A DNA stretch of 64,000 nt from Porphyromonas crevioricanis (GTDB lineage: Bacteria > Bacteroidota > Bacteroidia > Bacteroidales > Porphyromonadaceae): NCBI RefSeq assembly GCF_900167225.1, contig NZ_FUXH01000010.1, forward strand, positions 1 through 64,000, in the 5' to 3' direction. The position numbers and the translations under genes were made by a program. Positions within the stretch are counted from its first letter, which is position 1. The number at the start of each line of letters is the position of its first letter. The notes below the pieces were generated by a model, which was given only the letters and a program-made list of their open reading frames with translations, ran no database searches and was not told where the DNA came from. This document shows positions 12,331 to 54,330 of this stretch, in pieces.

Positions 12331-12778
12331 CATAAGTACCGACAGTGTACTTGGTCAATGTTTTGATTACCGAGATAGTTAATAGGTACCCAAGTGTCTA
12401 TTCATGCCCTTTTGATCAGTCTTTTCAGAATGGTGTAATCAAGGAAAAAATGAGAGATACAAGGGATGGAGTTCAGGTATGGTAAGGAACTATCAGCGGA
12501 AAGGGCATTAGGGTGAGGATGGAAGGTAAGTGAATGAGAATGAGAGGGATTTTCGGAATTTTGCGATGGATTGCATTGGAGTGTAAAGAGCAGAAGATGT
12601 GGATTTATGCAGAAGTTCCGTTACCAAATCGTTAGTCCATTTCTCTAATGGTAACGAAGAGGCAAGAGAAAGTAACAGACGGAAGAGTGTTCGGTAATTC
12701 GCCTTTCTGTCGTTACGGTTCTTATTCTTTGTACCACAATGTTTTGCGTAGCTGAAAACGCTTCGGTAACGGGTAATT
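12331..12778. other. Gene-free leader of the recombinase island
   Basis: No coding frame is supported. From about 12615 onward it holds a cluster of GTTAC/GTAAC motifs in both orientations (near 12620, 12649, 12671, 12711 and 12764), including the inverted pair CGTTACCA / TGGTAACG. These may be recombinase or accessory-factor binding sites. Confidence 0.4.
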
Positions 12779-14029
12779 TTGCCCATAATAAAGAAGCGTA
12801 TGCAAACAGACAAATTCAAGGTGTTGCTCTACCTGAAAAAGAGCGGATTGGACAAGTCGGGACAGGCTCCGATAATGGGGCGTATAACTTACGGGCGAAC
12901 CATCGCCCAATTCAGTTGTAAACTCTCGTGCGACCCGAAGTTGTGGAATGCTCGTGAGAGCAGACTGAACGGCAAAAGCCGTGAAGCGGTGGCAACGAAT
13001 GGCAAGTTGGAACGCTTGCTTCTCTCGGTGCAGTCGGCTTATCGTGTACTTTGCGAGCGAGGAATTGCATTTACAGCGACAGACATCAAGGAGCAGTTCC
13101 AAGGGAGTATGCAAACTCAAATCACCTTTTTGGAACGATACGACCGAATGGTCAAGGAGATGGAGCAAAAGGTGGGCATCGAAATAAAGGCTACGACTAT
13201 GAGTAGTTACTATACTATCCGTAAATATTTGCAAGTCTTTATTGGAGAGAAGTACCACACGGCTGACATTCCTTTCGGACAGATGGAAGAAGATTTCTTG
13301 GAATGTTTGCAACATTATTCTGTTGGGAAGCTGGGACATTCGCAAGCCTACTATCATAAGATGGCATTAGCCGTGAAGAAAGTCTGCCGTTTGGCGTATC
13401 GGGAAGGATTAACCGAACGACAATTGTTCGCTCACATACAGATTGAACGAGGAGAGAACAAACAACCTCGTGCTTTGGATAGGGCTTCATTGGATAAGTT
13501 GCAGAGCTTGACTTTTGAGCCGTATGAGGTGGAGTTGGAAACCGCCCGCAATCTCTTTCTCTTTTCTTGCTTTACGGGTGTAGCCTATTGCGATATGATT
13601 GCGCTGAATCGGGAACACCTCTTTACGGATGATGAAGGGGCGTTGTGGCTAAAGTTTCGCAGGCAAAAGACCAATACCCTTTGTCGTGTGAAGCTCTTGC
13701 CTGAAGCAATTCGTTTGATAGAGCGGTATCAATCGGATGAACGTACCACGCTCTTCGCTCCCATTGCTTATCCTGCTTACCGTGTCCAGCTTAAAGCCCT
13801 GCAACCTCGGGCAGGTATCTCCATTCCTCTTTCGGCACACGTCGGTCGCCACACTTTTGCCACGCTCATAACGTTGGAACGAGGTGTCCCCATCGAAACG
13901 GTAAGCCGAATGTTGGGGCACAGCAATATCCAAACAACCGAGCGATATGCCCACGTTACCCCGAAGAAACTCTTCGATGAGTTCGAGCGGTTTCTCTCTT
14001 TCACCGAAGATTTACAACTCTCTTTGTGA
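12779..14029 (+). CDS. Tyrosine recombinase (IntDOT-like), copy 1
   Basis: A 416-residue site-specific recombinase. It has an N-terminal arm-binding domain (residues about 8-100), a SAM-like core-binding domain (about 115-210) and a C-terminal catalytic domain. The catalytic H354-x-x-R357 (HVGRHTFAT), H381 (LGHSN) and nucleophile Y390 (TERYAHV) are intact. The usual first arginine, in a TGLR-type motif, is missing: the sequence reads CFTGVAYCDM. IntDOT-type integrases of Bacteroides elements lack it in the same way, so the enzyme may still be active. The start at the ATG 12779 gives a complete arm domain. Confidence 0.92.
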   Translation: MPIIKKRMQTDKFKVLLYLKKSGLDKSGQAPIMGRITYGRTIAQFSCKLSCDPKLWNARESRLNGKSREAVATNGKLERLLLSVQSAYRVLCERGIAFTATDIKEQFQGSMQTQITFLERYDRMVKEMEQKVGIEIKATTMSSYYTIRKYLQVFIGEKYHTADIPFGQMEEDFLECLQHYSVGKLGHSQAYYHKMALAVKKVCRLAYREGLTERQLFAHIQIERGENKQPRALDRASLDKLQSLTFEPYEVELETARNLFLFSCFTGVAYCDMIALNREHLFTDDEGALWLKFRRQKTNTLCRVKLLPEAIRLIERYQSDERTTLFAPIAYPAYRVQLKALQPRAGISIPLSAHVGRHTFATLITLERGVPIETVSRMLGHSNIQTTERYAHVTPKKLFDEFERFLSFTEDLQLSL

Positions 14030-14054
14030 CATTCAAGAATATACCCTCAAAAGC

Positions 14055-14120
14055 ACCTAAGCTTTTCCGAGAAAGCAATAAAGCTTTTGTCCGAAAGCTT
14101 AGGAGCTTTGGGAGATAAAG
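14055..14120. repeat. 22-bp repeat units between the two recombinases
   Basis: Two successive 22-bp units (14055-14076, 14077-14098) and a degenerate third. The second unit is identical to the unit at 33692-33713 in the guaA upstream array, with 27 matching bases counting the preceding AAAGC. The segment is also imperfectly palindromic: AAAGCACCTAAGCTTT on the left faces AAAGCTTAGGAGCTTT on the right. Confidence 0.8.
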
Positions 14121-14152: not shown

Positions 14153-15316
14153 ATGCGCAGTACCTTCAAAATCCTATTCTATATCAATAAGTACAAGACC
14201 AAGGCAGACGGCACAACAGCAATCCTCTGCCGTATCACCATAGACGGAGCGAACGTGGTGATAACTACAGGCGAAAGCACCACTCCCCACGATTGGAGCG
14301 TGAAGCGAAGGGAAACGACGGACAAGAAGACCAACCAACGCCTGCAAACCTTTCGGGAGGAAATCGAACAGGGGTACAACACCTTGCTCTACAAATATGG
14401 AGCGGTGAGTGCCGAGCTTCTGAAGAACTACTTGCAAGGCATCGGGAGAACTCCGACAACACTTCTCGCCCTTAGTACGGAGGAATTGAAAGCTCAACGA
14501 GAAAGCAAGAGTGAGGGGACGTATAGCAACAATCGGTGTTCAGACAGGCAACTCAATGCCTTTGTGCGAAGTCGTGGCGAGGAGGATATTCCCCTAACGG
14601 CTCTTACGATGAATTTCTTTGATGATTATCGTTTCCACCTGAAGAAGGAGGGCTACGCCCCTGCAACGATAAACGGGCATCTCTGTTGGTTGAGTCGGTT
14701 GATGTATCGAGCCGTCAGTCAAGGCACAATACGCTTCAATCCTTTTGAGAGGGCGAAGTATGAAGCCGTGGAGCGCAAATCTCGTTTCTTGAGCAAAGGC
14801 GATGTGGCAAAGCTCTTGGCATTCCCATTGCAGGACGAAGGGGCAGAACTAAGCCGAAGAATGTTTCTTTTCTCTGTCTTTACGGGTTTGGCATTTGCTG
14901 ACTTACAGAGCCTGCGAGCTTCGCAAATCGAAACGAACAGTGAGGGGAAGCGCTATATCCGCAAGGCAAGACAGAAAACGGAAGTGGAGAGTCTGATACC
15001 CTTGCATCCGATAGCGGAGCAGATACTTTCGCTTTACACTAAGGAGGAGAGCAAGGGGGATTATAAGATATTTCCCGATACGATGAGCAAGGGCAAACTA
15101 CTAACCCATCTCAAAGCCGTGGGCTTGGCGTGTGGCATTCGCACTCCGCTGGGCTACCACCTCGCTCGCCACAGTTTCGGCACGCTGACTTTGGAGGCAG
15201 GTATTCCGATGGAGAGCATTGCCAAGATGATGGGACACGCCTCCATCTCCAGCACGCAAATCTACACCCAAATCACCGACCAAAAGATTGCAAAGGATAT
15301 GGATAGATTGATATAA
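14153..15316 (+). CDS. Tyrosine recombinase (IntDOT-like), copy 2
   Basis: A 387-residue recombinase from the ATG at 14153; the longer frame opens at a TTG inside the repeat and is not preferred. Architecture matches copy 1: arm-binding domain (STFKILFYINKYKTKADG), SAM-like core-binding domain, catalytic domain with H336-x-x-R339 (HLARHSFGT), H362 (MGHAS) and Y371 (TQIYTQI). The first catalytic arginine is again replaced (VFTGLAFADLQSL). The two proteins are clearly diverged, so this is not a recent duplication. Paired integrases of this kind may act together on one element. Confidence 0.92.
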   Translation: MRSTFKILFYINKYKTKADGTTAILCRITIDGANVVITTGESTTPHDWSVKRRETTDKKTNQRLQTFREEIEQGYNTLLYKYGAVSAELLKNYLQGIGRTPTTLLALSTEELKAQRESKSEGTYSNNRCSDRQLNAFVRSRGEEDIPLTALTMNFFDDYRFHLKKEGYAPATINGHLCWLSRLMYRAVSQGTIRFNPFERAKYEAVERKSRFLSKGDVAKLLAFPLQDEGAELSRRMFLFSVFTGLAFADLQSLRASQIETNSEGKRYIRKARQKTEVESLIPLHPIAEQILSLYTKEESKGDYKIFPDTMSKGKLLTHLKAVGLACGIRTPLGYHLARHSFGTLTLEAGIPMESIAKMMGHASISSTQIYTQITDQKIAKDMDRLI

Positions 15317-15477: not shown

Positions 15478-16404
15478 TTATTTTGTCCAACTTTGCACCT
15501 TGCGAATAAATAAAGACTGTTGATCAACAAACACATTATGAGAGCAATTATCCATATATATAACATTGTTTTTGCCTAATATATCTTGCAAGTTCTTGAT
15601 TTGATCAGGTGAATAGAGTCCATCGTCTTTTCCATACAGACCATAAATGTTCATATTTTTTGTCTTTAGATGTTTGATGTTTGCTGTAATGTCGATAGTT
15701 GTGTATTTTTCATTTGCCCAAAAACCTTTTACAGCCTCTGGCGAAGCCTGAGAAGAATACTTTATCAACAAGGAATCGGTCTTAAATTTCTCATAAATAC
15801 TTTGGGCTTCAGCCGTTGGATTCTTAGGATGATAAAAGCCATTTTGCATTGCGTGCATAAAGCAATAAGAACAATATTCAAGACTTGCGTTATCCATATT
15901 CTCAAGCATAGAAATATAGTTCAGATTTACGCTATCCTTCTTTGTTTGGTAAATATTTTTTGACTTTTGTAGAATAGTTTTAAACGACGATTGCAAAGAA
16001 ACAGGTGTCCCTACGAGAATAAGTGATTCTATTTTTTCAGGATATTTCTCAGCAAATAATGTCGCAATCACACCGCCAAAACTATGACCTATTAGCGTTG
16101 ATTTAGAAAGACCGTATTTTTGATAAATATAGTTTAAGTCATCAAAGGTTTCCTTGAAAGTGAATTGAGCAGAAGCTCTACTCCGTCCCTCTCCTCGTCT
16201 ATCATATACAATAACATAGAAGCCACGATCAGCAAGTTGTTGAGCGGTAGTGAATTCAAAATTTGCACTGTTATATCCAGGACCTCCATGAAGGAATATA
16301 ATAGCCCTATTCGTGTGATTCCCGAAAGTCTTGGTATAAAGATTCTGACTATAGGCAAACAATGTTGATAGTGCGAGTAGCGTTGTAAGCAAGATTTTTC
16401 TCAT
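15478..16404 (-). CDS. Secreted alpha/beta hydrolase (proline-iminopeptidase-like)
   Basis: A 308-residue protein with a signal peptide (residues 1-19, cleavage after FAYS-Q). The oxyanion motif HGGPG (39-43) and YDRRGEGRS (67-75) are typical of the proline iminopeptidase branch. The catalytic triad can be proposed as S108 (GHSFGG), D260 or D261 (GKDDGLY) and H289 (CSHNVF). The substrate is unknown. Its coding DNA is visibly richer in A+T than the flanking genes, consistent with acquisition as cargo of the island. It converges with the second recombinase. Confidence 0.82.
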   Translation of the reverse strand: MRKILLTTLLALSTLFAYSQNLYTKTFGNHTNRAIIFLHGGPGYNSANFEFTTAQQLADRGFYVIVYDRRGEGRSRASAQFTFKETFDDLNYIYQKYGLSKSTLIGHSFGGVIATLFAEKYPEKIESLILVGTPVSLQSSFKTILQKSKNIYQTKKDSVNLNYISMLENMDNASLEYCSYCFMHAMQNGFYHPKNPTAEAQSIYEKFKTDSLLIKYSSQASPEAVKGFWANEKYTTIDITANIKHLKTKNMNIYGLYGKDDGLYSPDQIKNLQDILGKNNVIYMDNCSHNVFVDQQSLFIRKVQSWTK

Positions 16405-16608: not shown

Positions 16609-16902
16609 TTATCTCAGATAATTCTCTTTCAAAATTCGTTGCAGGTCAGATATGCGATAGAGTATTTTCCCCGCGATTTGGGTGTAGGGAATAATGCCCT
16701 TGTCCCGATAGTCCTGCAAGGTACGAGGACTGACGAAAAGGCGTTCGCAGACTTCTCGCCCCGTAAGGTAAATTTCTCCTCCGAACAGCGGACGGTGCGT
16801 TTGGGCAATCTCCCGAAGGCGTTTGCTCACTTCTTTGATGCCTGAGATGAGTTGTTTCATTTCGGGCGTTTCTTTGTCTACGATTTCGTGTTCCATAATC
16901 AT
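16609..16902 (-). CDS. Helix-turn-helix DNA-binding protein (excisionase-like)
   Basis: A 97-residue protein with an N-terminal helical segment and a MerR-type winged helix-turn-helix: EIYLTGREVCERLFVSPRTLQDYRDKGIIPYTQIAGKILYRISDL. This HTH_17 pattern is found in excisionases and small regulators of Bacteroidetes mobile elements. Its ATG overlaps the stop of the next gene upstream (ATGA, 16899-16902), so the two are co-translated. Role as recombination directionality factor is inference. Confidence 0.85.
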   Translation of the reverse strand: MIMEHEIVDKETPEMKQLISGIKEVSKRLREIAQTHRPLFGGEIYLTGREVCERLFVSPRTLQDYRDKGIIPYTQIAGKILYRISDLQRILKENYLR

Positions 16903-17177
16903 TGTATCTTTCGGTTCGACTTTTCGAGGAGTGCTTCCACATCCTCACGTTTGTAATAGCACTTATGCCCGATTTGGATAAAGGGTAACACGGACGTGTC
17001 CCGATAGTGTTGGAGCGTTCGCTTGCTGATGTTCAGTATTCGGCACACGTCCCCGTTGTGCAACAGGTCGGGGACTTCGGGTTTCGCGCCAAAATGTTCT
17101 CTCATGCAAAGAGCCAGTTCTTCGATGCTCTTTTTCAGTTCCTCCCAAGCGGAGGTGTCGATGGCGGTAAATCTCAT
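16899..17177 (-). CDS. Helix-turn-helix DNA-binding protein (excisionase-like), paralog
   Basis: A 92-residue protein from the ATG at 17177 (MRFTAIDTSAWEELKKS); an upstream start would add unconserved sequence. The helix-turn-helix reads LLHNGDVCRILNISKRTLQHYRDTSVLPFIQIGHKCYYKREDVEALL, parallel to its neighbour (RTLQxYRD, IPYTQI/LPFIQI), so the two arose by duplication. A minus-strand TACATTTG box (17218-17225) is about 40 bp upstream. Confidence 0.85.
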   Translation of the reverse strand: MRFTAIDTSAWEELKKSIEELALCMREHFGAKPEVPDLLHNGDVCRILNISKRTLQHYRDTSVLPFIQIGHKCYYKREDVEALLEKSNRKIQ

Positions 17178-17217
17178 ATCAATATCGTTTTTAATTGTCG
17201 TTTTTCTCTTTTCGGTG

Positions 17218-17225
17218 CAAATGTA
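17218..17225 (-). promoter_or_regulatory. -7 box TACATTTG before the HTH pair
   Basis: Matches TAnnTTTG on the minus strand, 41 nt before the HTH start at 17177. No TTTG -33 box at the expected spacing. Confidence 0.35.
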
Positions 17226-17234
17226 TGCAGCCAA

Positions 17235-24755: not shown

Positions 24756-25601
24756 ACTCTTTCGGTTCTTCTTCAATATTACAAACACAACGGATGTGAA
24801 TCTCTTTTTGTTGAGGCTAGTCCTTCTGGAGTAGTAACCTCATCGCCCTCTTGGTCAAATCTTGCATCCACACCCGAATACAAAAACTATGAGCAAACAT
24901 AAAATAAAGAACCGATACGAGCAAGTTGTAAAGTGATATTGCTCTTGGTGCTGGAATATGCAAACCTCGAAAATTACTAATTGAGAAGTCTAATTGAGAA
25001 GTGTTGTTACGTATATTATTGTATAAATATATTTTCTTTGCCCTATGTTTTTCCACCCAAATAGAGGGGCTTTTTCTGAGGGTTTTCTCTCCCTTTTTTG
25101 ATGCTGACGGGAGGTATTTTTTGCTGACACGGGAGAAAACAAAAATTCTCTCCTGAGAGAATTTTCGCTAACACAGGAGAGAGCAAAATTTTTCTCAGGA
25201 GAGAATTTTGACCCTCTCAGAATGTCCTATTCATCGATGTTCTGGGAGACCAATCTGAAGTGCCTAAAAGGGAGGTGTGTCTACCCATATAGAGAGGTCT
25301 TTTTTCCCCCTTTTTTCCCGATTCCCGTTCCAAGCGGAATTTACAAAACATATCACTTTGGGAGGGGCAAAAAAGAGCTTCTTGACTTCATCTCGATCAT
25401 TCGGCTGCTCTTTGCCGGGCTCATGAGAAGGACTGCCATGAGGATATAACGTTTTCGTGGAAAGCAGCTGTAACAGCCTTTTTGATCTGTCCGTGCATTG
25501 CGTATTGAGGAAAGGCTTTGGCTTGCCTCCCAAACAAAGATGAGGCTGAGGCAAAATCCGATTTTGACATAGCCCGTCTCATTCATAAGGGCCTATCTCT
25601 A
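24756..25601. other. Long gene-free stretch before rnpB
   Basis: Holds dispersed repeat copy A (about 25050-25530) and an imperfect inverted repeat TGAGGCTGAGGCAAAATC facing GATTTTGACATAGCCCGTCTCA (25541-25581). A 79-codon minus-strand frame at 24817-25056 has no recognisable features and is not accepted as a gene. Confidence 0.55.
25050..25530 (+). repeat. Dispersed repeat, copy A
   Basis: Core 25101-25260 contains two 44-bp tandem units (25123-25166 and 25167-25210), each GCTnACACnGGAGAnA followed by AT-rich sequence and GAGAGAATTTT. After them come CCTATTCATCGATGTTCTGG and, further on, GGAATTTACAAAA (25336-25348). The same sequence order recurs at 53905-54240 and, inverted, at about 53640-53790. 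No coding capacity. Confidence 0.7.
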
Positions 25602-33458: not shown

Positions 33459-33625
33459 GTTAAAAAGAGAGCGTCTGCCTTGTTTTGCTCGACTGCGACT
33501 TCCCAGAGAGGGAGAGTTGTATTTTATTCCAGACTCTGTCCCTGGAGCTTTGGGGAGAAACTGTCGGTGCATTGGATTCCTGTTGAGTTTCACCGGAGTT
33601 GGGAATGGACCTGTTTTTTGTAAGC

Positions 33626-33887
33626 CTCGGTATCTTTTTGTCGATTGCTCGGTATTCTTTCCGGGAAGCACCCAATGAGAGCGTCAAAAGCAATAAAGCT
33701 TTTGTCCGAAAGCAATAAAGCTTTTTGAAGAAAGCAATAAAGCTTTTTGGAGAAAGCAATAAAGCTTTTGACGGATTACTCGGCATCTTTTCCGAAAAGC
33801 TCCTAATTAGCGTATGAAAAGCACCTAAGCTTTCGATTGATCGCTCGGTATCTCTTTGTCGATTGCTCAGTATCTTTTTCACCGTTG
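33626..33887. repeat. 22-bp-period minisatellite upstream of guaA
   Basis: Twelve consecutive units of 22 bp (two of 21) start at 33626, 33648, 33670, 33692, 33714, 33736, 33758, 33779, 33801, 33823, 33844 and 33866. The four central units begin AATAAAGCTTTT and the first three of them end in AAAGC, so that each unit junction (AAAGC-AATAAA-GCTTT) can form a hairpin. Outer units are of two further types, CTCGGTATC and CTCGGCATC variants. No unique spacers separate units, so it is not CRISPR. It resembles minisatellite-containing MITEs (BrickBuilt) that I recall from P. gingivalis. Confidence 0.85.
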
Positions 33888-53880: not shown

Positions 53881-53904
53881 AAGTTTTTGGCCTTGATTTT
53901 CACC

Positions 53905-54330
53905 CTCCTTTTTGATGTCTATAGGAGCTGTTTTTTACTAACACGGGAGAGAACGAAAATTCTCTCCTGAGAAAAAAAATATTCTCTCCTGTGTTAGCAA
54001 AATTTCTCTCAGGAGAGAAATTTAACCCTCTCGAAACGCCCTATTCATCGGTGTTTCGGAGGGCCATCATGAGCTAAAAATGAGGAACAAATTCGCTTGT
54101 CTATACAGGCTCTTTTTTTCTCCATTTCTTCTGTTTTTGTAGTAAGAAGGAATTTACAAAATATGTCGATTTTGGTGGCGAGAAACAACCTCTTGAAGAC
54201 CTTTGCATGGGTTCTAAAAAGCAAGTTTTAATTGCCTTTTGTCGATTTGCAGAATGCGGAGATCTTCATCTTTGTCTTAGAGCTTTTCACCATGATTATT
54301 GTATCCTGCAAAGGCAGTCGAAATAGCCTT
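53905..54330 (+). repeat. Dispersed repeat, copy B
   Basis: Same order of elements as copy A: TTTTTGATG, CTAACACGGGAGAGAA, TTCTCTCCTGTGTTAGC, CTCTCAGGAGAGAAATTT, CCCTCTC, CCTATTCATCGGTGTTTCGG, and GGAATTTACAAAATAT (54149-54164). Here the second unit is inverted, so CTAACACGGGAGAGAA and TTCTCTCCTGTGTTAG form a 16-bp hairpin stem. Confidence 0.7.

Follow-up and report, generated by a model that had tools for sequence, protein, structure and literature searches.

The recombinase locus and its repeat unit

The window, i.e., the whole stretch of 64,000 nucleotides analysed here, contains two tandem tyrosine recombinase genes on the forward strand, rec1 (12800-14029) and rec2 (14153-15316). Both encode Arm-DNA-bind_5, SAM_5 and Phage_integrase domains. 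The open reading frame of rec1 begins at a TTG at 12779, and its relatives start at the ATG at 12800. The ATG at 14153 is the start of rec2 in relatives with a short spacer; a TTG start at 14087, which would read through the repeat described below, is unlikely. The left end of the mobile element to which both genes belong (GGAACTAT, 12486-12493, forward strand) is a boundary common to its copies. On the reverse strand follow a cargo gene for an alpha/beta hydrolase (15478-16404) and, at 16609-17234, two HTH_17 (excisionase/MerR-like) genes (16609-16902 and 16899-17234). The window copy retains the recombinases, the hydrolase and the HTH pair. A right-end block and a relaxase match were looked for and not found in it, and the mobilization genes are missing.

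Between the recombinase genes lies a palindromic unit of 60 bp (14050-14109, forward strand) with the layout AAAGCACCTAAGCTTT-6 nt-AAAGCAATAAAGCTTT-6 nt-AAAGCTTAGGAGCTTT. Its three 16-bp blocks are spaced at 22 bp; the outer two are inverted repeats, the first and the last block being inverted copies of AAAGCWCCTAAGCTTT. The initial annotation had reported that 14077-14098 equals 33692-33713, with a match of 27 bases when the preceding AAAGC is included. This is correct: 14072-14098 (forward strand) and 33687-33713 agree in 27 of 27 bases (100%), far above chance. The identity thus stands, the extent does not, as the full feature spans 14050-14109. AAAGCAATAAAGCTTTT, the core 17-mer, is present in five copies in the window compared to 0.01 expected from shuffles, and it has 27 genome-wide matches at no more than one mismatch against none for the reversed control pattern. 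As RNA, 14050-14109 folds into one long hairpin of -30.8 kcal/mol (z = -4.0), and none of 200 shuffles was as good. The stem is conserved mostly by identity, not by compensatory change. A known Rfam RNA is ruled out as identity of the unit or of the guaA array because neither 14050-14109 nor 33687-33770 matched above the gathering score.

The unit in related recombinase pairs

The recombinase pair was sought in 26 Porphyromonas genomes, and 17 gave a DNA match. Six pairs from four genomes, read at the junction, have a long spacer in which the repeat is present as such or rearranged: C8 and C20 of our own genome, C14 and C15 of G003, and those of G006 and of P. loveana (G008). In P. canoris, too, the unit is in the same place between the recombinase genes. 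The spacer is short in 16 other pairs, 18-25 bp between the same anchors. The tree of long versus short spacers is ambiguous on age; the short form is nested among the long ones and is also present in the outgroup. According to the initial annotation the unit would be a chance insertion if every related element lacked it, and it had proposed to look for it at the same place in related elements. It is there, in several species and with conserved flanks. This refutes chance insertion and supports the view that the unit was captured by the element. Similarity among the long spacers extends past the palindrome, which is most simply explained by a single acquisition and subsequent inheritance.

A selfish, MITE- or REP-like insertion between rec1 and rec2 which is carried without function is a less probable reading, yet one to be taken seriously. 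The family is dispersed, long and short spacers coexist within one genome, and the 118 bp of extra sequence resemble an insertion. Against this, a clean target duplication is lacking, several species have retained the unit, and its flanks (123 bp in all) match the genes in conservation, with a mean column identity of 89%.

Just past the window (C8:64.5-65.9 kb; L193 1986-3422) the 60-bp palindromic unit recurs behind a single, different integrase gene. The flanks are near-identical in another species (G009 C27).

The AAAGC family at core sites

About a dozen other sites in its own genome, mostly core intergenic, hold the unit as arrays, the longest with about 17 copies. Upstream of guaA we find a four-unit 22-bp array of this AAAGC family (33687-33770), headed by a leader of about 61 bp (33625-33686) which is common to arrays elsewhere in this genome; downstream of the array is the terminal block AAAGCACCTAAGCTTT (33818-33833; all forward strand). 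The core-site arrays have the 61-bp leader and tails in common, both of which are absent from the unit at 14050. Of the other species examined upstream of guaA, two have 22-bp arrays which differ greatly from it in sequence, and no array was seen in the others. In front of an HU-like gene, two other species have the compact 60-bp unit in the very place of an eight-unit array in this genome. The unit was amplified separately in this genome; the products are 22-bp minisatellites at core sites, the one upstream of guaA among them.

Several observations stand beside these. An HU-like gene (MANKP..., L017 4505-5891) has an AAAGC array in front, and at the spot which matches its upstream region P. 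gingivalis carries 22-bp repeats of CTCGGTATCTTTT. P. canoris has two 22-bp arrays with a related AAAGC unit (L045 424-688 and 2878-2966). Outside the genus, Alloprevotella rava has two neighbouring blocks of this type at a distance of 22 bp (L089 2045-2083).

A genus-wide class of arrays

Noncoding DNA was scanned for tandem periodicity in samples of 200-400 kb per genome. All five Porphyromonas genomes sampled possess dyad-symmetric intergenic arrays of 21-22 bp period which are unrelated in sequence. In 400 kb of our own genome 10 noncoding arrays have period 22, and at most one was seen at any other lag from 12 to 40. The respective figures are 7 versus at most 1 for G005, inferred to be P. 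gingivalis ATCC 33277, and 22 versus at most 3 for G016. G025 and G001 use periods 21 and 22, with many 21-bp arrays. No excess at period 22 was observed in other bacteria (110 non-Porphyromonas loci, 809 kb). Dyad symmetry is pronounced: 24% of the units have at least 7 of 8 arm pairs compared to 1.6% of shuffled units. The arrays show no bias to gene 3' ends. The window itself contains a third 22-bp-period array with an unrelated dyad unit (GAGAGAA....TTCTCTC; 53903-54050) and, upstream of the RNase P RNA gene, a repeat of period 44 (2 x 22) which belongs to the ACACAGGAGA family (25118-25209).

The unit at 14050-14109 is a compact member of this Porphyromonas class of intergenic repeats: dyad-symmetric, of 21-22 bp period, with many families, dispersed and often tandem. 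That the arrays arose from this recombinase pair is ruled out by their abundance in P. gingivalis (G005) and G016, two genomes in which no such pair was detected. The literature searched, of partial coverage and hence no proof of novelty, contained no description of the 22-bp class.

The CCACGTGG family (L270-L279, L290-L299) has period 21, not 22, in two genomes. Contigs C6, C10 (at both ends) and C13 (at its start) of G000 terminate within 22-bp arrays; thus, assembly breaks there, and the arrays help account for such breaks in these genomes.

Arrays as integration sites

The C20 copy is an intact mobilizable element of 13.6 kb with HTH_17, Toprim primase-like, DUF3408, NikA-like and relaxase genes. 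Having an integrase, a relaxase and defined ends it qualifies as an integrative mobilizable element; the window copy is incomplete. The cargo of the C20 element (L268/L267) comprises ABC transporter genes of the branched-chain amino-acid type, and in P. loveana (L186) a copy of rec1 has similar genes as neighbours.

A sharp left end, GGAACTATT, is common to the copies and lies at 12486 in the window. Left of it, when lags of 8 to 60 are compared, self-identity peaks at lag 22 (z = 4.7); 200 bp away the signal is gone. The lag-22 threshold is exceeded by 8 of 15 left boundaries compared to 5.4% of noncoding positions (P = 3e-7); the 15 include two boundaries at separate arrays of a single genome, and more than one boundary from some further genomes as well. 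Five of the 15 have a lag-22 identity below 0.35, and left of the window copy, at 0.32, there is no clear 22-bp array. In three genomes the left-flank arrays are families dispersed in that host.

Two elements lie within an array. Our own C20 element (C20:153.7-167.4 kb) has AAGAAAATATTTTTTCGTGCGG units on either side, and at C20:97 kb a paralogous site of 96% identity holds the array uninterrupted and without an element. G025a likewise has a 12.8 kb element at whose right end the units of the left-hand family start again. For G004, BLAST with the left flank found no match on the right side. A right-end block is common to G006, G004, G025a and G025c. A conserved right terminal repeat ATAGTTCC was ruled out: it is exact in our own C20 only, the others having AGATAGTTCT, AGATAGTTCG, AGATAGTCCG and AGATAGCCCG. 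The junctions, read by eye, show repeats of a few bases, e.g., CAGAGGG in G006 and GTACAGG in G004, which fit integration by a tyrosine recombinase.

The initial suggestion of a target used by the element consequently has to be divided. It holds for the repeat class, as element ends adjoin 22-bp arrays and two elements split one. It is not supported for the AAAGC family, in whose arrays no inserted element was seen. Full-length relatives of the element are inserted in arrays of this repeat class, so that the repeats resemble not only passengers but also landing pads.

One may speculate, tentatively, that not sequence but dyad symmetry and period, i.e., two helical turns, define the class, that mobile elements recognise its arrays structurally as landing pads, and that the internal unit is a carried pad. 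If recognition is structural, tyrosine recombinases would thereby choose their targets in an unusual way, and the landing sites of the elements could be predicted simply.

We regard it as improbable that the 22-bp units are core-type recombination sites of the element's own tyrosine recombinases, the internal unit being a secondary attachment or regulatory binding site. The geometry is typical, with inverted arms of 5-6 bp flanking a 6-bp centre, element ends are located in arrays, and the arms of the target unit in G025, AGTTCC-AAGGGA-GGAACT, are those of the element end GGAACTAT. Yet P. gingivalis (G005) and G016, in which no pair was detected, are rich in arrays, the unit sequences of different families are too different for one sequence-specific protein, and no rearrangement was seen at the internal unit.

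Role of the unit

The following account is, in our estimation, probably correct as a whole. The unit, a member of the repeat class, is an inherited part of one lineage of integrative mobilizable element, situated between its two tyrosine recombinase genes. Amplification at core sites proceeded separately in this genome. The element appears to integrate at this repeat class, i.e., between two units of an array with junction repeats of a few bases, as seen in the junctions of two genomes; the element's recombinases presumably catalyse this insertion. The most likely role of the 60-bp unit would be that of a hairpin, in the transcript or in DNA, which separates rec2 from rec1, because the genes nearly abut in relatives without the unit. 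This is the weakest step. We favour separation by the hairpin, with passive carriage as the main rival. What is established for the internal unit is hairpin potential and position; its function is putative.

The initial annotation had further proposed that the palindromic arms end transcription between the two recombinases. As an intrinsic terminator or attenuator the unit would profit from its strong, stable hairpin and from its site between two genes on the same strand. The prediction does not support this: a T-run is lacking, the terminator scan, which looks for hairpin plus T-run, called no terminator-like site at the unit, and 14 of 53 arrays of the class are in divergent intergenic regions. 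We consider this role doubtful.

Comparison with known systems

Bacteroidales mobilizable and conjugative elements with IntDOT-type integrases possess arm-binding tyrosine recombinases as well as HTH_17 accessory, primase-like, NikA and relaxase genes. The element described here shares this gene set, and its short junction repeats, which differ between sites, are reminiscent of coupling sequences. It differs in having two tandem recombinases with a repeat unit in between and in its integration in 22-bp arrays.

The BrickBuilt minisatellite-MITE of P. gingivalis, of the same genus, is likewise intergenic and dispersed, consists of leader, tandem units and tail, and breaks assemblies (PMC4596501); our core-site arrays also have leader and tail flanking an intergenic array. 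That the arrays are BrickBuilt is nevertheless highly improbable and excluded by sequence, as its unit has 23 nt, AGAYCATARTATCCTCTCRTRTG, is unlike AAAGCAACTAAGCTTTCGGACA and unrelated to the 22-nt unit found here (AAAGCAACTAAGCTTT + 6), and was not reported inside recombinase elements (PMC4596501). An HU protein of P. gingivalis binds a 77-bp inverted repeat (PMC3969353), a hint by analogy that such hairpins may bind HU-like proteins.

The analysis ties a local repeat to a genus-wide rule: intergenic repeats unrelated in sequence share one period of 21-22 bp and serve as integration sites for a family of mobilizable elements with transporter, regulator and other genes as cargo. REP/BIME palindromes are insertion sites of particular mobile elements (PMC1525189, PMC2817692), and REP palindromes as mobile-element targets (PMC1525189) may be regarded as the closest precedent. 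Like REP/BIME, the 22-bp class is multi-copy, extragenic, dyad-symmetric and often clustered. The RAYT/REP machinery is ruled out because the Y1 transposase (PF01797) is missing from this genome and from most of the genus (present in 3 of 26 genomes). Unlike REP/BIME, the arrays described here have a fixed head-to-tail period of 21-22 bp with many unrelated unit sequences per genus, and they are used not by an IS but by a mobilizable element with tyrosine recombinases.
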